From positions 1 to 64,000 of the forward strand of contig WTPW01000443.1 in the NCBI GenBank assembly GCA_009809945.1: a stretch of DNA of 64,000 bases. The letters are read 5' to 3'. Each line of letters opens with the position of its first letter. The first letter of the stretch is position 1. Positions 10,406 through 60,960 of the stretch are shown piece after piece. Under the pieces are notes generated by a model. That model saw only the letters and a program-made list of their open reading frames with translations. It did not search any database and was not told the DNA's origin. This DNA is from Gigaspora margarita (lineage: Eukaryota > Glomeromycota > Glomeromycetes > Diversisporales > Gigasporaceae). The position numbers and the translations under genes were made by a program.

Positions 10406-13400
10406 ATGATGTCTAATTCAGATAATTCTCATGTTAATATTCAAATGGAAGGAACACGTGATAAAAATAAGAAAATTTTGGAAATTATCTGCTCGCCTAA
10501 TTTGAAATATGTCTCTGCATTACATCAAGATAACAATATTAGTCTTTGGTCCATCGATAGTCAAAAGGAACTTTTAACGAATATAAAAACGATTTATATT
10601 GACAGAATTAGCACAAAAAAAAAAGGTGAAAGAATATTTGCGATTTCAGATGATAAATATGTTTCAATTAGTCTTGAAAGAGTCATTCCTTATAATTTCA
10701 GTAAGTTGTGTATAAATTTAAAATTATTGTTATATCAATAAATTCAATACACTTATCGTATTTGTGTACATGTTTCAAGAAATTTTCGATTTTGAAACAG
10801 AAAAAGAGATAAAATTAACATTTCCAGATTGGCAAAACGAAATTGACTACTTATCCTTTATTGATGGCGGAAATATCGTAATGGTCAATACCAAGTATTA
10901 CAGGGCATATGTTTTTTCAAGCAAAGATAATAATACCTTGGATTGCAAATCAATGATTGAATTGAAATATTTTAAGAAAATTTATATTACCCCTAAGGGA
11001 AAATTGATCTTATTCAATGATACAATTTATGAGATCATGATGTGGGATATTGAAAAATTATCGGTTGAAACTCGTATTTTAATAGATTGGAATTGTACAC
11101 TTGAATCCGTTGAAACTAGTGATGATGAAAAATTATTCGTAGTATGTACAAAAAATGAGGAAACTATGGAAACAAGCTTATACGTTTTTTCCACCGAAAC
11201 TGGAATAAACCTGGCGTCCAGTAAGTTTAAAATTAATTGAATAATTGACCATATAACTGTTAAGTTCTTTTATATCAATATATTATTTTCATCATTATTA
11301 TTAGTGCATACGAAATTGGTAATAGATAGGTTTCACTTGATCGCTTCTCAAAAAGGAGAGAGATTACTATTTATCAACATTTCAAAAAAGCGATATAGTT
11401 TATTGGATCCCTATTATCTCAAAAATCCAATAGGTGCGAGTAAGCTTTTTGAAAATATTAAAGATAAACAAATTCAAGAACCATACATCATTAAATCAGA
11501 TAAATTATTTTATACAATTGATGGGAAAGTGTTAATTGAAAAGTTGGTGGATAATGATTGGGTCGATTGCTTGCGAAAAAAATTGAAAGACACAAATAGC
11601 ATTACAGCTCCGTCTGAAATGACAATTGATATTATAACCAAAATTATAAATGAGAAAAGTTATAACCCTTCTTACAATAATAATAATGAGCATGAAGGGA
11701 AATTTTTAAAATGGAGTTTAGAATTAAAAGATGGTTCAGTTAAGCTTATAGCAAATAAGTTAAAAACTTCGATTAAAAAGGAACTGGATATTCTTCCATC
11801 ATTTTATCCTGATGCAAATAATTTTATAGTTCATTGTGAAGTTCTTGAAAATGACGATTTCGTTACAATTACACGTATTGGTGTAATTATCTGGACTTCT
11901 AAGCTTTCTGGCATTAAAATGCATTATTACTGGAATGATTGTAATTATCGCTTAGAAGATTTTATTTTTGAAAAGACAGCGTTTAGAAATCTTTTTAAAG
12001 ATAGGAAACCAGGACGAATTCTTCCTGCTTCAAGTTATGAAACAATCTATAGAAACTTAGATGTTGAATTTGGTAAAGAAAAAACTCATCTTTTCAAAGA
12101 TTTTTTGAAAGTTAATTTTGCTGAGGAATTTTACTTAACTTGCTATGGAAAAGATATTATGGAAACACTTATTAAACTAAAGGATGATAAATGGATCCGA
12201 TCTTTAGGTCACAGCTGTATTGATAATTGTATACAAAATAATAATCACCTGATGTCTAAAATTTCTTTATTAAGTATTATTTTTGAAAATTTTAAAAAAC
12301 TATCAGAAGAACATCCTGCATTTATAGCAAGTACTTTATCTAAGATAGGATTTGTAGTTCCTTTTACTAACGTAAATCCAAAATCTACTTCTTCACACCT
12401 TTCCAGTTATGGAAAATATTGTCATTTATCTAAAACATCATATCTTGATATATTAACTTCTATTCTCTGGGATTGTTGGATTCGTTTTCAAAAAAATTTT
12501 GAAATTCGGTTTCAAACGTTTCAAAATAATCATCCTGATTTGCGAGAATTATTTGTAAAGCCAGTTATCGATTTTTATGATGTAGGTCATAGTACAACGA
12601 TACTCGCAATTCCTCTGCCAAATTTTGTTTCTTACCCAAAACATTATAAGTTTTGGAACGAATTATTGTTACCCAGTGCCAATCCTTTTACACATTCAAA
12701 TAGGCTTGAAGTGATAAATGAAGAATTTTATAGATATTTAAATGGAGAAGCATTACTTAAATTTAAATGGAATACCTATGGAAGAAACTATTATTTTGCC
12801 GTTTGGGCAATTTATACCGTTTTTCTTTTTTGTTTTATAATTGCTGCAACATGTTACGAAAGTATTTCTCAGACTAGTCTATTTATTCTTTTAAATATGT
12901 CAGTTGTTCTTGGGATTTGGCATTTACTTTTGGAATTGCGCCAATTTATTTTCTCACCGTTAACTTATGTGTATAGTTTATGGAATTATTTTGGTAATAT
13001 GAACTTTAATATGTAGTATTTAATGTATAGTATTAAATTTATTATTCTATTACTAATATCCTATAAATTTTTTCAAAGATTTAGGTGCATATATATTACC
13101 AATAATAACGTCAATTATATGGCTCCAAAATAATTTCATGCCAAAAGAATTGGCTACCTTTTCAACCTTATTTTTAGAAATAAAATTTCTTTTATATTTT
13201 CGCGCGATTGAATTTTCTGGTGATTTTTTCTCTATGATACTTGGAGTAGCTAAAAGGGGATTTTCATTTTTGTTAATATTAGGATTTATTGTAGTTGCCT
13301 TTGCACATTCATTACACCTTTTACTGCGCCCTGCTACTAATGTATCTTTAGATTACCCAAGTTATTCCAATGATCCAAATGATCCGTGGAATTTAGCCAC

Positions 13401-14198
13401 AAAATATAACGCTATAGATCCTAACGGCACAATTGAAGATAACTCTTCACTTATTGAACCTCCTACTGCGACTACAAATATGTTTATGTTAATGGGCTCA
13501 GCAATTGCTGCTGTTTATATTATGCTAACAGGTAAATTAAATTTTTTTTTTTTATAAATTTAATACAACCACCGATAAAATAAATAGCAACTTTTTTTAT
13601 ACATTTTAATAGGAAACACGGATCCAATTTCTTACTGGGATTTAGATAATAATCTCACCTTACTCATTCTAGCATTGGTATTTTCTTTTGTGGCATCTAC
13701 TTACTTAATGAATTTATTTATCGGACTGCTAACTAATGCAATAACTGAAACTAAAACAAGAGAGGCATCTTTAATTCTAAGAGCTGAGGTATGATATTTA
13801 TGAATTATATTAAATTGATATGTAAATTTTAAGACTTTATTATAATAATTATTCAGGTCTTAGAAGAAATTGAGTTATTATATCTGCTACCTTATCAAAG
13901 AAAAAAAGAAAATTGGTTTCCATTTGTTGTGTAAGTTATCATTGCATGCAAAACAAAATATTATTCATGTTATTCATATATTTATCTTTAAAGTTTTTAT
14001 GAATGCCATACCGTTAAACTTCGTGAACATGTAATGGATATACAAAAAGATAAATGGGCAGGTTATAAAAAACCTTTTATTTCAAAGGCACTTAATGAAG
14101 TTCTTCTACTACCTGATGAGCAGCCCTCTCTTAAAAAACTTGAGGATGATCTTAAAGAACTGAAAGAGTCAATTAAACATATGAAAAGAAATAAGTAG
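10406..14198 (+). CDS. WD40-like / TRP-like ion channel protein, 7 exons, 1110 aa
   Basis: I read seven exons: 10406-10700, 10780-11220, 11305-12993, 13079-13531, 13613-13788, 13857-13930 and 13994-14198. All introns are GT-AG and 63-85 nt long, and the frame closes exactly at TAG. Residues ~20-330 form beta-propeller-like strands (ISLWSID at ~44, IMMWDIE, SLYVFSTETG). Residues ~740-1000 form a six-helix ion-transport domain: helices near 741-762, 769-790, 803-829, 835-854 and 860-890, a pore-loop region at about 938-962 (NMFMLMGSAIAAVYIMLTGN), and S6 near 971-1000 ending MNLFIGLLTNAI. A charged, coiled-coil-like tail (KKLEDDLKELKESIKHMKR) closes the protein. The closest idea is a TRP-family cation channel in a cell membrane. 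The first of two adjacent ATGs has A at -3. No frame break is seen. Ion selectivity and role are unknown. Confidence 0.88.
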
Positions 14199-15229
14199 AT
14201 ATATATTAATAGTTAGACGAAATTTTGCTATAGCAATTAAATTTATATTTTAAATGTAAAATGGTTAGTTATTTTTAAACATGAACAAAATAAGAATAAA
14301 ATTTTAAAATATGTACAGTACATTGGTATCATTTTTCATAAATCTGAGTGAGTCATTAAAGATCTGGTAACTCTTAAACAAATCAAGGGTGTTCTCAAGC
14401 ACCTTAATCAATAGGCAAAAAAGTGTTGGGAAATAAAATTTATTTAGTGGAAAATATTTTAAATTAGTCAAGCAAGTTAATAATAAAGATGAATATGTGT
14501 AGTTTGATACATAAATATGACATTTTTATTAATAAAATGATTGAAATGAACTTGTTATTTAAATCAACAAACTTTTAACAACAAACAACCTTTTTTTTAT
14601 TCCTGATTTGAAAAATTTTACAATCAATTGAGTTTTCAAAGAGATTGCACAAGCATCATCGCATGCAGCAACAAATTATTATTTTACTTCTCATATTGAA
14701 TGTTTTATGACTTAATAAAAAAAATAGGGAAGTTCAAAAATTAATAGCTGATACTTATCGTCACTTGCTTTTAGCAATGTGGCAACAATTTCAACTATTC
14801 TTGTCGATAATCTTTTCTTTCATTACAACAACCCAACACCAACAAGAACCTAAACTAATATTATATTATAACTAGAGTCAGTAAACAGAACAACAATAAC
14901 TGCTAAAGTTGATGATTCACAGAATATTTTCAAAGATCTGTAGCAATTGCTTTTGTTAAATAGTTACTTTGTTTTTTTTATTTTTTATTCTTTTTTATTT
15001 TTATTTTTTATTTTATTTTTGATGATGATATTTAACAATTAATAAAAAAACTGCTCAAATATTGACTATGGTATTTATTTTGATTAATTCTAATAATGAG
15101 TACTAATTAATCTCACCAAGAATGATGCTTGAGAAAATTTCAATTACATCATAAATTGCATATTCAAATTTTAAGAATAATTTTTATATAAATATAAATA
15201 TTATAAAAGTAAATTAATGAAATAAGCAT
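14199..15229. other. 3' flank of the channel gene, no gene seen
   Basis: AT-rich with a T-rich stretch at 14970-15020. No coding frame or repeat structure is recognised. Confidence 0.45.
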
Positions 15230-30048: not shown

Positions 30049-30496
30049 ATAAAAGTACATTGCAGGGCTTAGTGACAGAATGGGCCATGTGCATTCATGC
30101 ATGCGCATTCGTGTGAAAAAAAAACAATTTTTATTATTATGTACTGTATATTATTCTGAAAATGCGAAAATAATACATTTTTTCCTATGATTTCATAACT
30201 AAATTTGTGATTTTTCATTGTATGATACTATAGCTTGCAACAACTCAAAAAGTTTCTTGATGAAGCCCTTTTTTACTTTTACCAAGTTGAATGGTCCCTA
30301 TCCTTGTACATATTAAAAAGGCTAAAGCCATTGTCAAGTAAAACCCTATTGTATTTGATCTTGATTATGACCTAGTATAAAGTATATATAAAGGTATAAA
30401 GGAACCTTTAGCAAATTTAAATTCTGTTCTTTTTTTAATAACCAATTTATTGGCTTATTTCATAAATACTTACCCAAATAAAGTTCTCAATACAAA

Positions 30497-33239
30497 ATGG
30501 CACGAAAACATGCTGGTGGCCCTGAAAAACATAGATTTACAAATAATATTATTATACTAGGCACAAAAGCTACAAACAAGCACAATACATATAGTGTATA
30601 CAAAGCTTGTGATAATGTATTGGGTCGGGATGAAGCTCTTGAAAAAGCAACAGTCACTAATAAAAAAATACAGTTAGAAACCATTTGAAAAAATGTGAAT
30701 ACTTCCGTATTAAATTGGGATCTCAAGAGGTGGTAAACGCATATTGCAATAAGACAGACAATGAAATAGAACACGATGAAGAAGAACATCCTTTCCAAGT
30801 TATAAAAAAGCGCTGAAACACTAACATATCTGGTAACATTAGAATTTTAAACTTGAAGATATTATATCATTAATATTTGTTTCTTATCTTTTACTTTTTT
30901 ATTTTTTAATTTTTTTTTTAAAAATAAGACGATACTACAAGCGACGTAACCAGTAGTGCTAGTGCACCATCATCAACCACAGCTATTCATAAAGGCCGAA
31001 CAAAAAAATCTACAAATTCAAAAATGGCTAACTTTGCCGTTCGAAATATTACTGCGAAAGAAAAACCAAAATTTGAACGGCTACTACTCAGAATGACGAT
31101 CTCAAATGGATGGTCTTTCTGATGGACTATGGATCCAGCCACCTTGGAGTTTTTTGAATTTTTAAATCTTAATCTTGTCCTTCCACATTGACATACTTTA
31201 TCAAATCGTATTCTCAATGTAGAAGCAACTAACCTGAACCTGTTACGTGAACAAAAGTTAAAAGCAGATAGAATTGGAGCAACACTTGCATTTGACGGAT
31301 AGAAGAATGTCTTGAATCAACATATATTTGGTTCACTATTTATCTTATCCAATGGAGAGACTTTGGTTTGGCAAGCTATTGACATAAGTTCTGAGAAAGA
31401 AAGAATGATCGAAATTATCCCTAAGATTGAATCTATGATTAATGAAGCATCAAACCTAGGCACTAAATTATCTGCCATTGTTTCTGATAGTGCCCCTGCA
31501 TATTCTGGTGCTCAGTAAATCATATCTCTAGCATATATAAGTGACGGCAAAGAAAATAGAACTTCAATCATATAAATTTTATATGATTTAAGTCCTATTT
31601 TCTATTGACGCCATTCATATCCTATATTGTTAAGTAATAAATTAATATTTAGTTAGCTAAACATAATACTTGAATTAGGCGTCGGTTACGATTAAAATAT
31701 CCCCAAATCATTTTCTCCCCTGCTTTGCCCATCAATGTAATCTTGCCATAGGAGAAATCTTCAAAGAGTCTTACGAATTCAAACTTGTTTCCAAACAAGC
31801 TATAGCAATAGTTGCATATTTTAATCATGCAGCTCATTCATATTTCATTGGAAAACTTCGGGATATACAAAAGCAAATATACAAGAAATATATTACCTTA
31901 ATTTGCCCAGCAGATACTCATTGTAACTCTTATTCCCAATGTTTTAAGAGCTTAATAAAATCTCGTCAAGCTCTTAGAGTAAGTGTTAAATTCTTGAAAA
32001 TACCTCTAGAAAAGATTACTTTATTAATTCGATTAAAATTCTTTTTATTAAAAGAATTTAGCTACTACACATGAATTACCCTTCGATAATCCCAGTTCTG
32101 AAAATGAATTAGGTCAATCTTCTAGCCATTTGAATGGGCTTTACCTTCTATGCAATATAACCTCAATTCTGCCTAATAATGATTTTTGGCAAAAAATAAG
32201 GCATTTACCTATATTGCTTCTTCCTTATTGTGAAGCCTTAAACAAACTTCAGTCTGATACCACACGTCTTCACGAAGTACTGCAAGCTTTTGGCGAATTC
32301 TAAAAATGTGGGAAGAATATAGTGATAAAAATTTGGCAAATAGAATGATTATACGGCTAGAACAAAGATAGAAACAATGGGAACAACCATTGTTATTATT
32401 GGCCTTTCTCTTAAATCCACGTACCCATGATACTTGGTTTAAAACCAGTACTGAAAATTTAAATTTCACATACCTCGCACGATTTATTAGCTATTATTAT
32501 AAGGCATGGTTCGAACGTCAGCCTGTTTGCATTTTACTTGAGTTTGAAGAATACAGAAAACAAAATTACCCTTTTGACCATGCAACACATGAGCAATTCG
32601 AAGATGTGTTGGAATTTTGGGAATTTGCATCCTCTTCAACCAGAGAATTAGGTCCTTTGGCTATACGTCTTTTTGGAATTTGTGTCAACGCAGCATCTGT
32701 AGAGTGATTATGGAGCTCATTGGGATTTCTTCATACTACCTGTTGAAATCGTCTCCTGGTAGATGTTATATTTTTAAGTTTTTATTATTAATTTTATTTT
32801 TTTTTAAAAAAAAAGATTTAATTTTTAAATTACAGAATCAAAAAGTATTGGCTATGAGCCAAATTCGTGCTTCCATTAACTTTTCACATAGAAAGAAACA
32901 AACCAAACCTTGCAGCAACCCAATTAGAAAACTGAATTATTTAGACCAACCAGCTGGACCAACTGAGCAAGATGAATTAGAAGAAGACAACGAATCAAGT
33001 GATCTGGATATAGAGACGACTGAAAATTGGAAAAATTGATTAAATGACTGGGAACAAATGTTAGCGGATGAAAGAACTGCTATAATGGAAGCAGAACATG
33101 AGAATGATGAGTGTAATCTGAGTGGTGATTTGTTAAGTAACTGTGAACATCTGGCAATAGACAGTAAAGCGAAATGGAATCTGAGTAACCTATTTAGTCT
33201 GCTGTTTCAAAAACCAACCTACATGAATATTGAAGGTTA
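30497..33239 (+). pseudogene. hAT transposase (BED, DUF659, hATC), decayed
   Basis: Domain order is clear though no long frame survives. There is a BED-type zinc finger at ~30560-30700 (HLKKCEYF; the second expected Cys of the first pair appears as Val). A DUF659 block at 31040-31518 includes NQHIFGSLFILSNGETLVWQ and SAIVSDSAPAYSGA. A core stretch at 31690-31978 includes FLPCFAHQ and KSLIKSRQALR. The C-terminal hATC dimerisation region lies at 32600-32760 (FASSSTRELGPLAIRLFG), and an acidic tail at 32835-33039. In-frame stops (for example three between 31120 and 31305) and frame changes near 32300 and 32705 show it is dead. Two introns are visible: 31979-32061 (GTAAGT...TTTAG) and about 32758-32834. 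A small hairpin at 31541-31618 interrupts it. Wild-type members catalyse cut-and-paste transposition. Confidence 0.85.
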
Positions 33240-35500: not shown

Positions 35501-36222
35501 TAACTTTTTTTTTTAACAGTTCTAGTTCTCAAATCTCCATTCCTAGTGCTATTTTAATACTACAACAAAATATAGTACAAGAAAAAAAGTTAGTAAACAA
35601 ATAATATCATAAAACAAAAAAAACAAAGCCAATATTTTTTTAATAGTTCTGGTTCTCAAATTTTCATTTCTAGTACCATTTCAATACCTCAACAAAACTT
35701 GGTACTAAAGAAAAAATTAGTAAACAAATAATACCAAAAGACAAAAAGAACAAACAAAAAAGAGTTATATATATTTTTTGTGACAATTCTGATTCTCAAA
35801 TCTATATTTTGGTGGCATTTTAATACCTTGATGAAATATAGTACAAAATAAAAAGGTTAGTAAATGAATAATACTAAAAGACAAAAAGAACAAACAAAAT
35901 AGAGCTGTATATTTTTTTTGCAACAGTTCTAGTTCTCAAATCTCTATTCCTAGTGCTATTTCAATATTCCAACAAAACATAGTACAGAAAAAAAAAGTTA
36001 GTAAATGAATAATATCAAAAGACAAAAAAAACAAAGCTATATATTTTTTTAATAGTCCTGGTTCTTGAATCTCTATTCCTGCTACTATTTCAATATCTTG
36101 ACAAAACTTGTTACTGAAATAAAAGATTAGTAAAAAAATAATACCAGAAGACAAAAAGAATAAACACAAAAGAGTTATATATTTTTTTTGTAACAATCAT
36201 AGTTCTTGAATTTCCATTTTGG

Positions 36223-36858
36223 ATCCTGCGAGTCGATAGCATTGTGGTTGCGCTCCTAGGACATTAACTGCTTTCATACAGAAGGTTGCCAGTTCAATTC
36301 TCACGAATGGTAAAATCTAACTACACATGATCATATGAAGGATGGCTTGAATTAGGATACTAGAACCATGTTTGGATGGCTCAGCCACATCTCATGCTCA
36401 GCTGTAATAGAGGCTATCCGATCACTTCAGATAGATGTTGTGTAGCTTGCTCTAATGGGGTTTGTGTGTCTCTGTCCATTTTCTGCTGGCCTCAGGGATG
36501 AAAAACGTCTAGAAAATTTGAAACAAGGGCTCAAGTCTGGTCAAACTCAGTTGTCATTGGTGCATCATTGTGCGAATTACTTGGATAACTCTGGATAAAA
36601 ATTCCCCAGTTGTAAATATAGGATGGCTTAGTACCAGTTAGCCATGGTAGAAATCAAAAATAGAAATTAGTATGCATATGGCTTAGCACCAGTTAGCCAC
36701 AGTAGAAATTAGAATAGATGCATATATGTAGATCATTACAAAAATGTACAAATGTAGGGACCTTGTTTGCGGGGTCCTATGACCAAAAATTGACCTTAAT
36801 AAAAGAGGCACCAGCTGCACCCCTAGTACATAGTGACTAGGGTTAAAATAAAAAAAAA
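36223..36858 (+). mobile_element. tRNA-derived SINE, 636 bp (type 3)
   Basis: Head with GTCGATAGCATTGTGGTTGC (A-box-like) and AAGGTTGCCAGTTCAATTCT (B-box-like). An A-rich tail ends at 36858. The exact 11-bp duplication TTCCATTTTGG flanks it (36212-36222 and 36859-36869), within a satellite unit. The body also contains two ~60-bp copies of GCTTAGYACCAGTTAGCCA (36627 and 36680). Confidence 0.88.
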
Positions 36859-37480
36859 TTCCATTTTGGTAACATTTCAATACCTCAACAAAACATACTA
36901 TAGGAAAAAGGTTAGTAAATGAATAATACCAAAAGACAAAAGAATAAACAAAATAGAGCTATACATTTTTTTTTTGCAACAGTTCCAGTTCTTGAATCTT
37001 CATTCCTAGTACTATTTCAATACCTCAACAAAATATAATACTGAAAAAAAAGTTAGCAAACAAATAATATCAAAAGATAAAAAAAAACAAAGCTATATAT
37101 TTTTTTTGTAATAGTTCTAGTTTTCAAATTTCTATTTTTAGCACAATTTCAACACCTCAACAAAACTTGGTACTGAATAAAAGTTAGTAAATAAATAATA
37201 CCAAAAGACAAAAAGAACAAACAAAAAAGATCTATACATTTTTTTTGTATTAATCCCAGTTCTCAAATCTCCATTTTGGTATTATTTCAATATCTCAATA
37301 AAATATAGTACAGAAAAAAAGTTAGTAAACAAATAATATCCAAGACAAAGAAAACAAACAAAATAAGATTATCTACAATTTGTAATGTAGATCATGATAC
37401 ATAAAGTTAAATAGTAGATAAATAAAGTTAAATAGTAGTTAATAAAGGGTTATTGATTTATAATTAATCATTATTAGTCA

Positions 37481-40219: not shown

Positions 40220-41195
40220 GCAAGAATCATACCCAAAATAAGCTATCTCATTTTTTGTACTACTATAATTTTTAAAAATTTAAGATGCTTAATTTTGAAT
40301 TTTATTGATCAAAAAAACCAAAATTAAGCATATTCTCTTAAATTTTCAAGAAATATAAAAGTAAATATGCTGAAATAATGTATTTTTATGTGCTGAACAA
40401 GTTTTCTTAGAGCACTTTTTTAGAATCAATTAGTAAAATTTTGTGAATCATAGAATTTTTTAGTATTTTTATTAATAAAATTATATAAAATATTATATTT
40501 CACAAAATTTTACTAATTGATTCTAATATTGTGCTCTAAAAAAACTTGTTTAGCATATAAACATACATTATTTTGGCATATTTACTTTTATATTTCTTGA
40601 ANATTTAAGANAANATGCTTAATTTTAGATTTTTTGATCAAAAAATCCAAAATTAAGCATCTTCTCTTAAATTTTCAAGAAATATAAAAGTAAATATACT
40701 GAAATAATGTATTTTTATATGCTGAACAAGTTTTCTTAGAGCATAATATTAGAATCAATTAGTAAAATTTTGTGAATCATAGAATTCTTTAGTATTTTAA
40801 TTAATAAAATTATATAAAATATTATAATTCACAAAATTTTACTAATTGATTCTAATATTGTGCTCTAAGGAAACTTGTTCAGCACATAAAAATACATTTT
40901 TTGGTATATTTACTTTTATATTTTTTGAAAATTTAAGAGAAGATGCTTAATTTTAGATTTTTTGATCAAAAATTCCAAAATTAAGCATCTTTTCTTAAAT
41001 TTTCAAGAAATATAAAATTAAATATGCCAGAATAATGTATTTTTATATGCTGAACAAGTTTTCTTAGAGCACAATATTAGAATCAATTAGTAAAATTTTG
41101 TGAATTATAATATTTTATATAATTTTATTAATAAAAATACAAAGAATTCTATTATTCACAAAATTTTACTAATTGATTCTAACAAAGTGCTATAA
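40220..41195. repeat. Tandem array of ~330-bp palindromes
   Basis: Three units start at about 40306, 40638 and 40965 (GATCAAAAAATCCAAAATTA). Each is a near-perfect hairpin with ~165-bp arms that include TTTTCTTAGAGCAC, AGAATCAATTAGTAAAATTT and the inverses. Ambiguous bases near 40600 point to assembly difficulty. The last arm overlaps the proposed 3' exon of the micro-exon gene. Confidence 0.85.
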
Positions 41196-42845
41196 GAAAA
41201 TATTAATAAAAATTAATTAATACTCAATTGAAATTTATCGCAAATTTTATCTTAAATTTTGATATCATAATTTAACTTACTCCCTAATAGGTGATGTTAA
41301 TTATAGAAAGCATTCTTTAGAAATGCTTCAATAGAAAAATGAATAAGTTGTGATCGAACGGACTACTTACAATCTAGTTTTTGATGTAAATTGTTTGAAA
41401 TTTTGATTTAAAAACGTTTTAAATTTGATTAAAATGTTCATTATTTCTTATAAAATTATATTTACTCGCTACTAAATTTAGATGTTAATTTTTAATAGTT
41501 TGATCCATAGCATTCAAATGTATGCAGTAGCAATCATAATTAAATTTACACTCACTCACTACATAATTATACGACCAAACGAAGAATTATTATTATTAAT
41601 TTTGAAAATTAATTTACCAATGATATATACAACCGAACTTACTTGCTTATAGATGGATTAATTTACGAATGTAGATGTTTACATAAGCAATTATATTTTA
41701 TAGTCAATATTTGATTAACAAACTTATTCAAACTCAATACTCACAAGCTGGATGTGGATGAACTTAGTACTTATTTATAATGAAAATCATTAATACGCCT
41801 ATTTGATCCTTTACTTACATTCTGAGAGTTTGGTGCAATTGGTATATTTTAAGTATTGGCATATTTAAATATTAGCATATTTAAATATTGGCATTAATTT
41901 CTAAAAATGAATAAAAATTATCGATTTTCATACTCACTCACTGATTTAAATAATTATATAACCGGTTGAGTCGATAATTATAATAAAATTTATAAATATA
42001 TGCAATTTTTATTTCTTACTCACGCGCTGATTAATTGATTTTGCCAAATTATTTAGCACAGATTCTTAGATATTAGTTTAAAAAGCAAATAAATATAGCC
42101 TAATTTTATACTCACATTCTNATTTAAATTGATATGGTCATACAATTATGCAAGTATATTTAGTGCTAATTTATATTACGAAATATTTTGGGAAATGAAT
42201 ATTGTATGTGCAATTAATTTTATACTCACCGTCTGAGAATTGATGCAATTTTAAAGTATGGTTAAGAATATATTATTACGAACGAAAGTATGCAGTCAAT
42301 CTTAGAACTTACTCGCTTAAGTTGTTAAAATTTATGTAATAGTTAATTCATTAATTCATTGCGAAATTTTAATTTGGTAATATACTCACAAGCTGGTAAT
42401 TATTGCAATTCGTGTAACCGTCAAAACATCTATCACAGCAGATTATTGAATTCTGAATATTACCAATCGTACTATATACTCACGTAGGATTACTGTACCT
42501 AAATTATGTATTAATTAAATAATTTAACAGCTAATTCACGGTGAAGAATTAATATATAATAAGCTTTATATTTACNCCCTAATAGTTGATGTAATCATTT
42601 ATTTAGTACTATTTTATTGATATGCACAATTAAACAATATGCTCACATTCTTTTTTTTTTTTATTAATTCTATAAGTATTATCAATTTATTTTAATTTTC
42701 AAATTAAGCAAATGAGTATATAGATTCAAACTTACATCTAGAAATTTAGGAAATTGGTTTAATATTTTAGTATATTAGGAGAGTTCATTGAGAAATTCAA
42801 TTACATTTATTGAGAAATTCGGAGTCGATAGAAGTAAATCGATAA
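41156..42845 (-). CDS. Candidate micro-exon gene: 18 introns separated mostly by 3-nt exons
   Basis: Minus strand, 5' to 3'. A 41-nt exon (42845-42805) comes first, then exons at 42737-42736, 42649-42647, 42578-42576, 42492-42484 (or 42498-42484), 42392-42390, 42315-42313, 42232-42230, 42118-42116, 42026-42024, 41940-41938, 41821-41819, 41747-41745, 41645-41643, 41558-41556, 41471-41466, 41373-41371 and 41283-41281. A terminal exon from 41189 has its stop at 41158-41156. Every intron (67-116 nt) starts GTRAGT, GTAAAT, GTAATT or GTGAGC and ends YAG or AAG. The joined frame is open over 43 codons, including IDLLLSTPNFSIN, then I-M-x, NPTFERIAEIFNDSEL and DTLLESISKIL. Apart from the first and last exons, nearly every codon is split across exons. 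Exonic bases are about 41% GC, well above the AT-rich introns. The first exon and translation start are uncertain; an internal ATG has A at -3 and G at +4. Family unknown. Confidence 0.5.
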
Positions 42846-43417
42846 CTTGAANCGCAGGTTATTCCTGAACATTTAAANAAGTTGGATAAAAGGTATGTAC
42901 TACGTACCAGTACTACAGTTAAGAAATTCCAAATTNGGGATCNGTTAAAACCAGGTTCTATCATGAGATTGTAACCAATCTAAATCATGAAATTTTGTTT
43001 AAACATACGAAACGAAAAAAAAGAAACATATAAGAAGCCTATGTCTAAACCTATTTTGCCGCATTAAAAAAAAAAGTCTGGCANATGGTTTTGCTTCTAA
43101 GACTGTTCTAATCCTACCAAACGATCTCTAATCTAACCCTAATCTTAATGTACAGTACTTAAAATTCGTGATAACGATTCCATAAAAAAAGTAATGTAAA
43201 AATGTATAAAAATCTTTATTAATTGTGTAACCATATCCGAAATCATGCAGAAAACTGGTAATGATAATCGAATGCACATTAGAAATAAATATTTCTTAAA
43301 TTATCANCCTCAATAAAGTGTAGAATTCTAATATCTTTACATAGAAATGATGCGCAGGAAAAATGTACTTAAAATAGTAATTATTTATGTGCATCTAAAT
43401 AAGCCATTGCTGAGGCA
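42846..43417. repeat. Mobile-element debris shared with 50500-53745
   Basis: GAAATAAATATTTCTTAAAT, CTCAATAAAGTGTAGAA and GAAAAATGTACTTAA (43280-43390) recur at 53635-53735. AAAAGGTATGTACTACGT (42890) recurs inverted near 53165, and CTAAACCTA...GCATTAA near 50710. It appears to be an element end abutting the micro-exon gene. Confidence 0.5.
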
Positions 43418-45806
43418 AATTTAGCAGCATGATGGAAAGTCGTTTTGATTGGCTGATGTGGTACAACTGTAACGTCGATCGTTACACAATTATTTATATT
43501 AGTTTTAGAGTACTCCCTATATGAAAACGTAATCGCTCATATGACAGGTCGTCGTATATGTCACCCATGAGCGAATAACTTTCAGAATATATTGGTCTTT
43601 GGCCTTACTAGCGGCTGCCAAATTTAATCAGATATAATCAGATTCCCGGGTGACTTTTACTAATGGCGCATTTTTGCTATTAGCTTAATAGTATGTAGCT
43701 AAGTAGGCTCGGGAAGTACTGTACTTTTTTTTTTTGAGTTTTTTAAAAGGCGTTACCTCAACAGCTAATCTGTTCTGTAATCAAGGTGAATACAAGAGAG
43801 ATCTAACCGATCTATAAAAGGTGGTTCTTGTAAGACATACGAACTATTATGAAAAAAGCATTTAATGGTATTTTAAAGATTTACTTTTTGTAAATTTTTT
43901 TTATCTTTTTTTTAAAGCGTTAACGGCTAATATAAGGTTGAAATTTCTAATTAAAATAATATAGTAGCTATACGAATGAAATAAATTTAATTTAAAGGAA
44001 GATAGGAATTCTGGCAATATTAGTTGCACTTCGCAAGAATACTTCGTTGGATTCCGGTGTTAATGATCTTGAATCAGAGTGAGGAAAAGTATTCAGCAAG
44101 AATACTGTAAAGACTTCTTGAATCCCGGTGATAATTCTTAGTTCAGAATCGTTGTAGTTGGCATAAGAACTATCAATAAGCAATTGAATGGTAATTGAAA
44201 TTGCTAAGAGTTAGTTTTATAATTTTTTTTTTTGTGTTCAATAACTAATACATATAGTTTTGAATTTTTAATTAAGTAATATAGAGTTATAAGAAAGAAT
44301 CGAATATATTTAATTTGTAAAATAGTAATTTTAATAAAAAAATAGTTCTATTAAGTTTGAAAAAAGCGGGTTTAATAGTAATTAACCTTTTCTAAGGATG
44401 ATAATTTATTGAATGATGATTTTATTATACAGTTATAGATACGAAGTTTTGATTTATTTTTTATCAAATAAATTTTATTTATTATGTAAATGTAAATTTT
44501 GATTATTCGCTGCTTAGTATATAGTAATTATAAGATATTACGATTAATATCATGAAATATGTCAATGTGCTGCTGCACAGCACATTTCAGCAACCATTTG
44601 TTCTGGCAGAACAAATTTTGATATTTATCGTATCTGGAAAATGTATACCAGATTGGTGCGCCACGGTGGCTTGATAGGAATTATTTCTTCAAAGATAATA
44701 CTAAGAATTATTGCTGGGATTCAAGAAGTCATTACAGTATTCTTGCTGAATACTTTTCCTCACTCTGATTCAAGATCATTATTACCGGGATCCAATGAAG
44801 TATTCTTGCGAAGTGCAACTGATATTGCCAGGATTCCTATCTTTCCTTAAATTAAAATTATTTCATTCGTATAGCTACTATATTATTTTAATTAGAAATT
44901 TCAACCTTATATTAGCCGTTAACACTTTAAAAAAAAAAGATAAAAAAATTTACAAAAAGTAAATTATTAAAATACCATTAAACGCTTTTTCTATACTTAA
45001 TAGTTCTTATGTCTTACAAGAACTACCTTTTATAGATCATTTAGATCTCTCTTGATTACAGAACAGATTAGCTGTTGAGGTAATGCCTTTTAAAAAAACA
45101 AAAAAAAAGTACACCTGAGTCTATTTAGCTATATACTATTAGGCTAATAGCAAAAATGCGGCATTAGTAAAAGTCACCTGGGAATCTGATTATATCTGAT
45201 TAAATTTGGCAGCCACTAGTAAGGCCAAAGACCAATATATTCTGAAAGTTATTCGCTCATAGGTGACATATACAACGACTTGTCATATGGGTCATGGACT
45301 AGGAAAACCCATCTTTGAAGGGGGGTTTCCATTTTGAGAAAATGGTGATTATAGTTTGTGTTACCTAGATTTTACCCCTGAATTTTTTGTTTATTTTTAG
45401 ATATCAAATACTGAATAAACAATGTCATGTGATTATGAAACACTGATTGACCAATCTAATTTAATTGAGTCGTAAATCTTTGGTTATAATTCTATTTTTA
45501 GAACATGATCGTTAAAAAATTGGTTTACATTCAAGTTAAAATATCTCAATAAATTATTATATTAATGTAGGGTAAAAAGTGAAATACATATAGATACAGA
45601 CCGGAACTTTAATTTGAATCAAAAATATCGAAATTGATAAAAAAGTGTCAAAGACGGGTTTTCCTAGTCTATGACCCATATGAGCGATTACGTTTTCATA
45701 TAGGGGGTACTCTAAAACTAATATAAATAATTGTGTAATGGTCGACGTTACAGTTGTACTACATCAGCCAATCAAAACGACTTTCCATCATGCTAAATTT
45801 AGCTCA
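43418..45806. mobile_element. Giant foldback element, ~750-bp arms
   Basis: The left arm (43418-44170) and right arm (44700-45806, minus the insertion at 45300) are reverse complements, for example GCATGATGGAAAGTCGTTTT against AAAACGACTTTCCATCATGC. The ~500-bp centre is unpaired. Frames at 44183-43992 (minus) and 44641-44850 (plus) encode the same ~60-residue string only because they lie on opposite arms. No transposase. Confidence 0.8.
45300..45676. mobile_element. 377-bp TIR MITE in the right arm of the foldback
   Basis: GGTCATGGACTAGGAAAACCC is inverted at the right end. The 6-bp duplication CATATG flanks it, and the intact left arm of the foldback shows the site without insertion. Confidence 0.85.
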
Positions 45807-47295: not shown

Positions 47296-49236
47296 GTGAA
47301 AGTAATATGGTTACAGCCACAGGATGGCTTTTTAGAAACCCTAAATATAAAGAGGATTTTTATACAGACAGAGGAAAACTTTTTTGTCGGTTTTGTCAAG
47401 ACACAGTTTCATATGAAAAAAAACCAGTAATAGATAACCATTTGGCGTCTTCTACCCACAAATTAAAAAATAAAAGCACTTGAAAAATCTCAAGACAATA
47501 CATCTACTCAACGTACACTTACTACCTGTAATAAGCTTTATGACAGTCAAGAACAATTTGTACTTGACTTTGTTAAATTGTTAGCCAAAGCTGATATACT
47601 ATTTGAAAAGATATAACATTTTCAACCTTTTTTACAGGAATATTGTAAATANGGTATGTTTATTAATTTTTATTTAATAATTTATTTCGATATAATTAAT
47701 TAATTTATATTTTTAATAGGTAGTGCAGTTCCTGGAGCTAACCAAATTTGTGAAAAGTATTTTCTGATTTTGTTCGAGCAAGAAGAAGAAAAACTTAAAA
47801 ATTTGGTAGTTGGAAAAAAAATCAGTATTACGATCAATTAAACAACAGACGCTTGCAGTAGGTGGCAGTAAACATTCTATTTAGTTATTTTGATCAAACT
47901 AGTTTGATTAGAACTCATTATTTACAAGCTGTAAATAAAACTACNATTTCACAACTCGTAATTTCAACTTTATCCTACTATAAAATTTCTTTTGATAATG
48001 TTGTTTTATTTATCACAGACAATGCTTTGTATATGTTAGCTGTTTTTAATATTCTTTTGCCCTTAATGCCCAAATTAAATATAACACTTGCTTCATGCAC
48101 ATACTTAATCTAGTAGGAGATACTTGGATTGGTTACAAAAACTTTAAGCTTCTCGATTCTACTTTAAGTTTGATTAAAACAACCTTTATATATTCACTAG
48201 CTAGAAAGTGATGATGGATTTCCTTTCTTTCTTTAAATGGTGATTTGGATCCTACACTTCCACTACTGCCTGTAAAAACCAGATAGAACTCCTGGTTTAA
48301 TTTTGCTTTTTGGATTTGTACCCATTTTACATTGTTAGTTGATTTTTATTTTAAGGAATCTGAAGAAAGTAAGGACAGTATGGCAATTTCCAAATTGGTT
48401 AAAGTTTTGAGAATCAGGATAATTTGTTTTATTTGCAGTTTATTCTTTTTTTTATTATCTTTAATGCACAATTGTAAGTAATACTGTAAAATCTTTGCTA
48501 AAAAAACCCTTTGGGACTATGCCCTTTAGTGCATAGTCCTGAAGGGTTTTTTTAGTAAAGATTTTGTTGATTCATGATAATTTATTCACTATATTATTAT
48601 TATTATTATCATTATTATAGATTAGTCAAGAATCTTGAATTTGTCAAAATCTGGAATAAACCTGTTACGCCATTTCTTGCTGATTGATTAGAGCTAGTAC
48701 ATGCTCATTTAAGTATGGGTTGCCAAGCACCCCAAAATCAAATTAAATAGTTGATCTTTGTCAAATTAATCAGTATGATTTGTCATCATACGATGTAATT
48801 TTTAAAGAAGTATTTCAATTAGCATACGACAAATTCAAAAAACATGTTGATAATCATTCTGCACTTCCAATTTTCAAAGCAACTTGTTGCTTTGACCCAT
48901 GCTATATGCAGGCACAAATTGACTGCCACGATATTACATTATATATAGCAATTAAAGAATTAGAAAATCCTTCAAATAAGCTTATTAATGAATGGGCAAT
49001 TTATTCAGGATTGTTAGAAGCATTTGGTAAAAATTTTGATTTGGATAATTATTGGCATGAGAAGATGGCTTTGTTACTAAATAATAGTAAAATAGCATTA
49101 GTATATATTTGGTTACCAGTTTCAGAAGTTGATGTGGAATGTAGCTTTTCAGCTTAAAACGAATTTTAGCGGATAATAGACATGCTTTGTCAGAAAGTTC
49201 AATCCAAATATTAAATTTTGTAAATTTTAATGAATA
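47290..49236 (+). pseudogene. hAT transposase, CGGBP1-like lineage, decayed
   Basis: An N-terminal zinc finger at 47380-47470 shows CRFCQDT...HLASSTHKLKN (Cys-x2-Cys plus His-x5-His). A catalytic-core-like block at 47862-48230 includes FDNVVLFITDNA and LNLVGDTWIGY. The C-terminal dimerisation block at 48780-49236 includes IALVYIWLPVSEVDVECSFS (usually VERSFS in the family) and ILNFVNFNE. It is interrupted by stops and frame changes (for example a stop right after ECSFSA at ~49155) and by a hairpin at 48486-48569. An intron at about 47652-47719 ends in AATAG. It is unlike the transposase at 30497, so two hAT lineages have been active here. Confidence 0.8.
48486..48569. mobile_element. 84-bp hairpin element within the transposase
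   Basis: AATCTTTGCTAAAAAAACCC and GGGTTTTTTTAGTAAAGATT pair, followed inward by GACTATGC / GCATAGTC. The arms are ~37 bp with an 8-bp loop. Confidence 0.8.
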
Positions 49237-59278: not shown

Positions 59279-60960
59279 AATAATATAACAAGAACAAACA
59301 AGAACGAAATATATATTTTTTTGTATATAGTTCCAGTTCTTGAATCTCTATTCCTGGTGCCATTTCAATATCTTGATAAAACATAGTACAAAAAAAAGGA
59401 TAGTAAATAAATAATACTAAAAGACAAAAAAAAAAACAAGAAAGAGCTATATATTTTTTTGTATATAGTTCTAGTTCTCAAGTTTCTATTTTCAGTGCCA
59501 TTTCAATACCTTGACAAAACAAGGTACAGAAAAAATAAGGTTAGTAAATGGATAATACCAAAAGACAAAAAGAACAAACAAAAACGAGGTATAAGTTTTT
59601 TTGTGTATAGTTCTAGTTTTCAAATCTTTATCAAAGTGCTATTTTAATATCTTGACAAAACATAGTACAGGAAAAAAGTTAGTAAACAAATAATACTAAA
59701 AGACAAAAAGAACAAACAAGAAATAGCTATATTTTTTTTTGTATATAGTCCTAGTTCTTGAAACTCTTTTCCTAGTACCATTTCAATATCTTGATAAAAC
59801 ATGGTAAAAAAAAAAGATTAGTAAACAAATAATACTAAAAAACAAAAATAGCTATACATTTTTTTTGTATATGGTTCCAGTTTTTGAATCTCTATTCTTA
59901 GCACAATTCAATACCTCGATGAAACATAGTACAGAAAAAAAAGGTTAGTAAACAAATAATACCAAAAGACAAAAAGAACAAACAAAAAAGCACTATATGT
60001 TTTTTTGTGTATAGTTTTCAAATTTCTATTCCTAGTGCTATTTCAATACCTTGACAAAATATAGTACAGAAAAAAAAAGATTAGTAAATGAATAATACTG
60101 AGAAATAACAAGAAATAGCTATACATTGTTTTGTATATAGTTCCAGTTCTTGAATCTCTATTCCCAGTGCCATTTCAATACCTCAACAAAATATAGTACA
60201 GAAAAATAAAAGTTAGTAAATAAATAATACTGAAAAACAAAAAGAACAGACAAAAAATAACTATACATTTTTTATATATATAGTCCTGGTCTTTGAAACT
60301 CTATTTCTGGCTCCAAGAACTCTATTGCACCTTTTTTGATGAAGCACAAATCTTAAAAAAGAAGTCAAACATTATTGTATATGTCCAAAAATAAGTTACT
60401 ACCTAAAATAAGCTACCCCTGATTTTTTTCAAAAATTTTAAAAAACCTATTAGCGTTGCTACATATAAAAGTCTAAATATTACTAAGTAAACTTCAAAAG
60501 TGCTATTAAGTAAACTGGTTCAGAACATCAAAATATTCTTAAAATAAAAATTTAGTAGCATTTAGACAACTTTTTATTAGTACATTTTACAATTTTTCAA
60601 AAAATTCAAAAAGCTAAAAATAAACTACTCAATAATTTTTTGTGTGTTTTTTTGCCCAAAAAAGTTACTTATTTTCAGATACATTTAGTAGTAAAAATGA
60701 AAGAAAAAATATCAAGAATAGAAAATAAGAAACTAGTACTTATCTTTTGTACCAGTTCTGGCTTCAAGATCTTCTTCCAATGCACCTTTTTGATAAAGCA
60801 TATATTTATTTTTTGTATGTACCAAAAAACTTGTAATTTGTATAAAAGAAGATTATCTATAATCTGTAATATAGATTGTAATGCATAAAGTTAAATATTA
60901 GATTGTAACATGTAAAATAATCTTTAATGTAGCTCAAAAAATAAAGGTTAATAATTCATA
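59279..60960 (+). repeat. ~140-bp satellite array, locus 2
   Basis: Eight units at about 140-bp spacing (starts near 59290, 59441, 59576, 59711, 59840, 59980, 60108 and 60248). They share ATAGTTCTAGTTCTTGAAAC, CCATTTCAATACCTTGACAA and TTAGTAAACAAATAATACTA. Left border TAATAATATAACAAGAACAA and right-side sequence ATTATCTATAATCTGTAAT / AAGTTAAATATTAG (60850-60900) match locus 1. Confidence 0.85.
60309..60805 (+). repeat. Direct repeat bracketing an AT-rich insert
   Basis: CTGGCTCCAAGA...TGCACCTTTTTTGATGAAGCA (60307-60345) recurs as CTGGCTTCAAGA...TGCACCTTTTTGATAAAGCA (60757-60800). The interval between them has AAAATAAGTTACT / AGTTACTTATTTT weak inverted ends. Confidence 0.5.

Follow-up and report, generated by a model that had tools for sequence, protein, structure and literature searches.

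Micro-exon-sized steps between strong splice sites on the minus strand

We analyzed a stretch of DNA of 64,000 nucleotides (positions 1 to 64,000 of contig WTPW01000443.1; the window) and describe here a ladder of splice-site motifs on its minus strand. Between 41281 and 42737, there are 17 strong 5' splice sites (donors), each with an AG close upstream, as located with unique strings. The sequence is 27.5% GC. With an additional donor at 42804 and the coding part of a terminal exon, the whole ladder extends over 41156-42804 and comprises 18 candidate introns (67-116 nt) and 17 micro-exons, based on measured splice-site strings and on motif enrichment. At its 3' end it overlaps the edge of a 329-bp tandem array at 40282-41200, which was found by tandem repeat detection and consists of palindromic units.

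The distance between the donors and the nearest upstream AG was strikingly uniform. It was exactly 3 nt in 15 of the 17 donors (taking the second AG of TAGTAG at 41466), 2 nt at 42736, and 9 nt at 42484. Elsewhere in the window, an AG at exactly 3 nt was present at 23 of 217 donor-like sites (binomial P ~3e-13), indicating that the spacing in the ladder is far beyond chance. The motif AG-N3-GTRAGT had 12 exact minus-strand matches from 41285 to 42394, compared to six on both strands of the other 62 kb, no two of which were within 1.6 kb of each other. When the ladder was shuffled 2,000 times with its dinucleotides preserved, the mean number of matches was 0.02 and the maximum was one. GTRAGT alone was found 16 times in the ladder, versus 0.58 expected, and donors at three further steps were one base off GTRAGT (GTGAGC at 42646, GTAAAT at 42575, and GTAAAT at 41465). 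The lengths of the micro-exons were multiples of three in 16 cases, 15 of 3 nt and one of 9 nt. Micro-exon genes are characterized by a series of internal exons that have canonical splice sites and lengths well under 51 nt. In the sequence, 17 candidate exons have AG acceptors and GTRAGT-like donors, at lengths of 2-9 nt.

These results confirm that the splice-site ladder is a genuine pattern, and its solid part is the interior steps, with introns between 42735 and 41284. All the steps named in a preliminary description of this DNA were located on the minus strand at the positions given there. That description had also counted 18 introns. The full number depends on both ends, the first of which (donor 42804) is the weakest, and the last of which ends at TTTTCTTATAG (41190) in the edge of the repeat array.

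Positions and sequences of the candidate exons

The upstream end of the ladder is tentative. Based on the donor ATAAAT|GTAATT at 42804, we placed a possible upstream exon or 5' untranslated sequence at 42805-42862. Its frame is open for PAXQVIDLLLSTPNFSIN, with an in-frame TAA before it, and an exon ending at 42805 would prepend these residues to the peptide described below. The following 2-nt step, TAG|AT|GTAAGT (42736-42737), may be where a non-coding first exon ends rather than a 2-nt exon, because an in-frame TAG is directly upstream. The next micro-exon, AAT (42647-42649), has a weak acceptor that is preceded by a run of A. Its last two bases and the G of the micro-exon after it, GGN (42576-42578; one base is ambiguous in the assembly), make an ATG in the context ATAATGG. 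The 9-nt micro-exon TAATCCTAC (42484-42492) has a tandem acceptor, AG|GTACAG|, so that an exon of 15 nt (to 42498) could take its place without a change of frame; both lengths had been proposed previously and both are possible.

In the middle of the ladder, both the motif and the splice-site strings identify, in order, CTT (42390-42392), CGA (42313-42315), ACG (42230-42232), AAT (42116-42118), CGC (42024-42026), TGA (41938-41940; no stop in the phase-2 frame described below), AAT (41819-41821), CTT (41745-41747), CAA (41643-41645), and TGA (41556-41558). The micro-exon TAGCGA (41466-41471), like the steps at 42736, 42576, and 42484, was identified by its splice-site strings. It had been described as a 6-nt exon, and this reading is possible, but the tandem TAG|TAG also gives an exon of exactly 3 nt (CGA, 41466-41468) by way of its second AG. 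ATT (41371-41373) and GGA (41281-41283), identified by motif and strings, precede the terminal exon (41156-41189). The terminal exon follows TTTTCTTATAG, completes a GAC codon, and reads TLLESISKIL and then TGA, and an AATAAA is located approximately 25 nt downstream. The longest interval of the ladder (116 nt) contains a small palindromic tandem of ATTGGCATATTTAAAT at 41848-41885.

U1 pairing, composition, and lengths of the intervals favor true splice sites

We compared the intervals to the introns of a complete gene in the same window. This channel gene (10406-14200, plus strand), which we reassembled with six introns of 63-85 nt, has an open frame of 1110 residues that encodes a WD40-like N terminus and a TRPV-like C-terminal Ion_trans domain (Pfam Ion_trans, E 3e-7). 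The candidate introns of the ladder (67-116 nt) are close to these in length, in agreement with the resemblance noted previously.

The ladder donors matched U1 better than those of the channel gene. Over positions +1 to +8 (GTRAGTAT), the mean match was 7.2 of 8 in the ladder and 5.3 of 8 in the channel gene, and the ladder donors had A at +7 in 12 of 17 cases and T at +8 in 11 of 17. On the exon side there was no match to U1, with a G at -1 in only one of the 17. Extra pairing within the intron would be expected where a tiny exon cannot contribute.

The 3' ends of the intervals were also splice-site-like in composition. In the 15 nt directly before the AG, there were 9 G and 48 C in total, whereas the interval bodies contained 87 G and 88 C (P ~2e-4 for depletion of G; P ~1.5e-7 for C over G). 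There were five AGs in the last 30 nt of the intervals, compared to approximately 24 expected from the window. Two steps have AAG as the acceptor, which is also among the acceptors of the channel gene. TTAAY, considered as a possible branch-point motif, was slightly enriched, equally on both strands, and is therefore no evidence for a branch point. Taken together, interval composition, U1 pairing, and lengths give good support to the interpretation that these are true splice sites.

The intervals are not detectably related to each other

A few features of the region could suggest a satellite, a tandem repeat now decayed, with AGNNNGTRAGT present by chance in its unit. There was a weak local likeness between a few steps (ACATCAMCTATTAGGGNGTAA at 42576 and 41281), with a best-pair column-shuffle P of 0.04 in a test that is anti-conservative; AATTGCA and TGCATA are repeated on the sense strand of the ladder; and a true satellite, the 329-bp array, adjoins it. 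However, the lengths of the intervals were spread over 67-116 nt rather than being near-constant, and there were ten different triplets in the 15 steps. Local alignment scores between intervals were near the shuffled level, consistent with the earlier statement that the units share almost no sequence, and identity in register was hardly above that in shifted registers. Tandem Repeats Finder detected no array across the ladder. Pattern scans of viral contigs for the triple step found only arrays of a single triplet at near-fixed spacing, or isolated chance matches. We consider a satellite origin very improbable. The earlier interpretation is thus partly supported. Its core, the preference for selection on splice signals over a decaying satellite, is supported by the U1 complementarity at +7 and +8, the G- and AG-poor 3' tails, the lack of significant homology between intervals, and interval lengths near those of the channel-gene introns; its full form would also require removal of all 18 introns and retention of every triplet in the mRNA.

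Because the intervals are not detectably related, the splice sites are the only part that they share. The short common flanks leave room for an old duplication of exon-intron units as the origin of the ladder, and do not show it. Such a duplication would account for the three bases added per step.

The joined micro-exons read open in phase 2 into the terminal exon

Joining the candidate exons gives AT AAT GGN TAATCCTAC CTT CGA ACG AAT CGC TGA AAT CTT CAA TGA TAGCGA ATT GGA, followed by the terminal exon, and the predicted spliced product contains AATGG..CTTCGAACGAATCGCTGAAATCTTCAATGA(TAG)CGAATTGGA. One frame, in which codons are broken after the second base (phase 2), is open as (I)MXNPTFERIAEIFNDSELDTLLESISKIL and ends at the TGA in the terminal exon. 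Its ATG would be assembled over an intron from AAT|G; position -3 is A and position +4 is G. Neither this open reading into a stop-bearing exon nor the reduction of the 6-nt exon to 3 nt by TAGTAG was part of the preliminary description.

We scored coding potential using the codon use of the channel gene. Phase 2 was the best frame, with a score of 4.4 bits; 5% of randomly drawn AG-N3-GT triplet sets scored at least as high (P 0.05). The joined peptide, including the residues from the terminal exon, has the pattern of an amphipathic helix (P 0.02). The GC content of the triplets was 38%, compared to 31% in AG-N3-GT triplets elsewhere (P 0.16), and we did not use it as evidence for coding. A Pfam scan between 37.5 and 48 kb, which covered two of the three frames of the minus strand, found nothing, and there were no matches to known RNA families or tRNAs. 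We believe that the phase-2 product is likely translated, and we regard the evidence for coding as modest.

The weak score, the presence of open reading in two of the three frames, and the lack of a homologue in Pfam or the PDB would also fit a transcript whose splice sites are genuine and in use, but which is non-coding or has triplets that carry no protein information. In such a case, the ladder could serve expression, retention, or delay by way of many rounds of splicing. This would leave several things unexpected: exon lengths divisible by three, tandem acceptors that do not shift the frame, open reading as far as an exon with a stop, and the amphipathic pattern. A non-coding ladder seems unlikely to us.

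The ladder is probably part of a micro-exon gene spliced by intron definition

We think that the ladder probably belongs to a small minus-strand micro-exon gene, of which it forms the 3' half, and that this gene is spliced stepwise by intron definition. Approximately 17 short spliceosomal introns (67-116 nt) would be excised singly, each recognized across itself. Exon definition would be impossible at 3 nt: an exon of this size has no room for both U1 and the 3'-splice-site factors, so neighboring introns would have to leave in sequence. Each joining would add mostly 3 nt and present the next, very strong 5' splice site, such that the message would be assembled as if by a ratchet, and near-perfect pairing of the donors at +1 to +8 would compensate for the lost exonic contacts with U1. 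The triplets would be retained and read in phase 2, with one codon spanning each junction. The product would be a peptide of approximately 29 residues, or these residues would form the C terminus of a somewhat longer protein. The sequence shows the pattern, its significance, and its resemblance to splice sites in composition; from it we infer the use of the sites, the order of splicing, and translation.

A fuller proposal is that nearly all codons would each result from a separate splicing event. About 15 consecutive 3-nt exons would be joined by an intron-defined ratchet of strict order with U1-optimized donors, the ATG would be put together from both sides of an intron, and skipping of the frame-neutral triplets, residue by residue, could make peptide variants. 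We hold this combination only tentatively, as possible rather than probable.

Strong donors near acceptors also resemble recursive splice sites, and triplets that keep the frame would permit free skipping. The region could then be a single intron of approximately 1.5 kb with recursive splicing stations of dual specificity, or it could contain optional micro-exons that are mostly skipped, and the ladder would be a regulated or intermediate state. Classical recursive splice sites are AG|GT without an exon. In the ladder, however, none of the triplets starts with GT, and GTRAGT does not arise at any upstream G|T junction. Thus, no donor is regenerated at a junction, and each triplet stays unless it is skipped. 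In addition, there are no long introns in the channel gene. Recursive splicing or general skipping is, in our estimation, quite improbable.

It is also conceivable, though unlikely, that the ladder is a pseudogene or the remnant of a dead micro-exon gene that has a broken 5' end and was truncated by the repeat array. The first steps are weak, there is no clear first exon, the terminal exon is in the edge of the repeat, and ambiguous bases are clustered upstream (six of the 13 N at 42852-43307). However, the interior splice sites are nearly perfect, which would be unexpected after long neutral decay, and the interior frame is intact.

Several observations count against a functional, translated micro-exon gene. 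The ends of the ladder are weak (42804, 42736, and 42647), most of all the first intron, with its donor GTAATT at 42804 followed by a 2-nt exon, and the upstream exon at 42805-42862 is tentative. At the other end, the terminal exon is located in the edge of the 329-bp array. The interval bodies are also poor in AG (tail versus body, P 0.13), so the scarcity of AG is partly a property of whole intervals. We identified no clear branch-point motif in the intervals, and CTRAY was not enriched. With respect to coding, at least one open frame is present in 64% of random triplet sets, the micro-exons can be read without a stop in a second frame too, and the joined peptide has no homologue in Pfam or the PDB.

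Comparison with known micro-exons

The bicycle genes of aphids have approximately 17 exons on average, almost all of their internal exons are in phase 2, and they encode secreted proteins with CYC motifs (PMC9168663). The ladder is similar to these and the megacycle effector genes in having many consecutive micro-exons, phase-2 internal exons (its best frame also breaks codons after the second base), and a short product without homologues (PMC9168663). The bicycle products are also fast-evolving, and the ladder product may be likened to them in this respect (PMC9168663). In contrast to the bicycle genes, the ladder has a length of exactly 3 nt in nearly all of its exons, and it would encode approximately 29 residues or a short tail. 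Its host is probably fungal: the GC content (27.5%), the short introns, the hAT-like transposase, and the channel protein with its WD40-like and TRPV-like parts would suit an arbuscular mycorrhizal fungus. In the part of the product read from the micro-exons and the terminal exon, no signal peptide and no paired CYC motifs were found; this part has no C and no hydrophobic leader.

Schistosome micro-exon genes have 10-20 small exons, mostly of 15 bp with a range of 6-81 bp (the abstract gives a minimum of 3), and introns of 0.1-5 kb (PMC10526429). As in the ladder, the small exons are mostly multiples of three, and skipping that keeps the frame is possible (PMC10526429). The ladder falls outside this class, with exons of 3 nt and introns of 67-116 nt.

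Exons as small as those in the ladder are known singly. There are 1-nt exons in APC11 of Arabidopsis (PMC4674806) and CYP621A of Fusarium (PMC12940212), homothorax of Drosophila is among the cases of single 1-nt or 3-nt exons (PMC7392893), and two 3-nt exons have been predicted in the lipase gene lipS of Dactylellina (PMC5639578). These are also too small for exon definition, and intron definition with sequential splicing has been invoked. The 1-nt exon of APC11 was explained in this way, with introns removed sequentially (PMC4674806); the two introns flanking plant micro-exons are removed consecutively (PMC8831610); and intron definition has been shown in filamentous ascomycetes (PMC5639578). 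In contrast to the one or two per gene in these cases, there are approximately 15 in a row in the ladder. Fungal stwintrons and recursive splicing likewise involve consecutive excision of short introns in ordered steps (PMC5639578). However, in stwintrons one intron is nested in a splice site of another (PMC5639578), whereas the ladder introns are side by side, 3 nt apart, and no donor is reconstituted.

We found no earlier description of a run of approximately 15 3-nt exons in the open-license literature, where absence is not proof. Families of micro-exon genes are known, and such a long run of 3-nt exons, if spliced as proposed, would be a form of this kind that we have not found described. 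If transcripts confirm it, the ladder would stand at the far end of the range of micro-exon genes, and it would offer a natural system for testing how the spliceosome deals with about 15 exons in a row that are too short for both splice-site complexes. It would permit tests of ordered splicing, of skipping of single residues as a source of peptide diversity, and of the origin of such structures. Standard gene finders and RNA aligners would miss the ladder, and similar genes may be hidden elsewhere.

Other features of the window

The units of the 329-bp array carry inverted copies of the terminal-exon sequence of the ladder and could fold into long hairpins. Because of these copies, either the 3' end of the gene was amplified or the repeat supplied the last exon.

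Upstream of the ladder, the cluster of ambiguous bases at 42852-43307 has six of the 13 N of the window in 456 bp, and two N are in the ladder. The cluster hints at polymorphism or at multi-copy or collapsed sequence. Also upstream of the ladder is a foldback element (43426-45794) with nested inverted arms of 118, 176, and 258 nt, a complementarity of 92-97%, and a short inner sequence.

Three distant arrays (35508-36195, 36856-37369, and 59290-60305) have CAATACCTCAACAAAACATAGTAC in common and appear to be one 138-140-bp tandem repeat. There is a remnant of a hAT-type transposase at 48780-49157 (plus strand), with a weak match to the hAT dimerization domain. Open frames at 30482-33237 (plus strand), which were only partly scanned, look like this remnant and are perhaps also of the hAT type.
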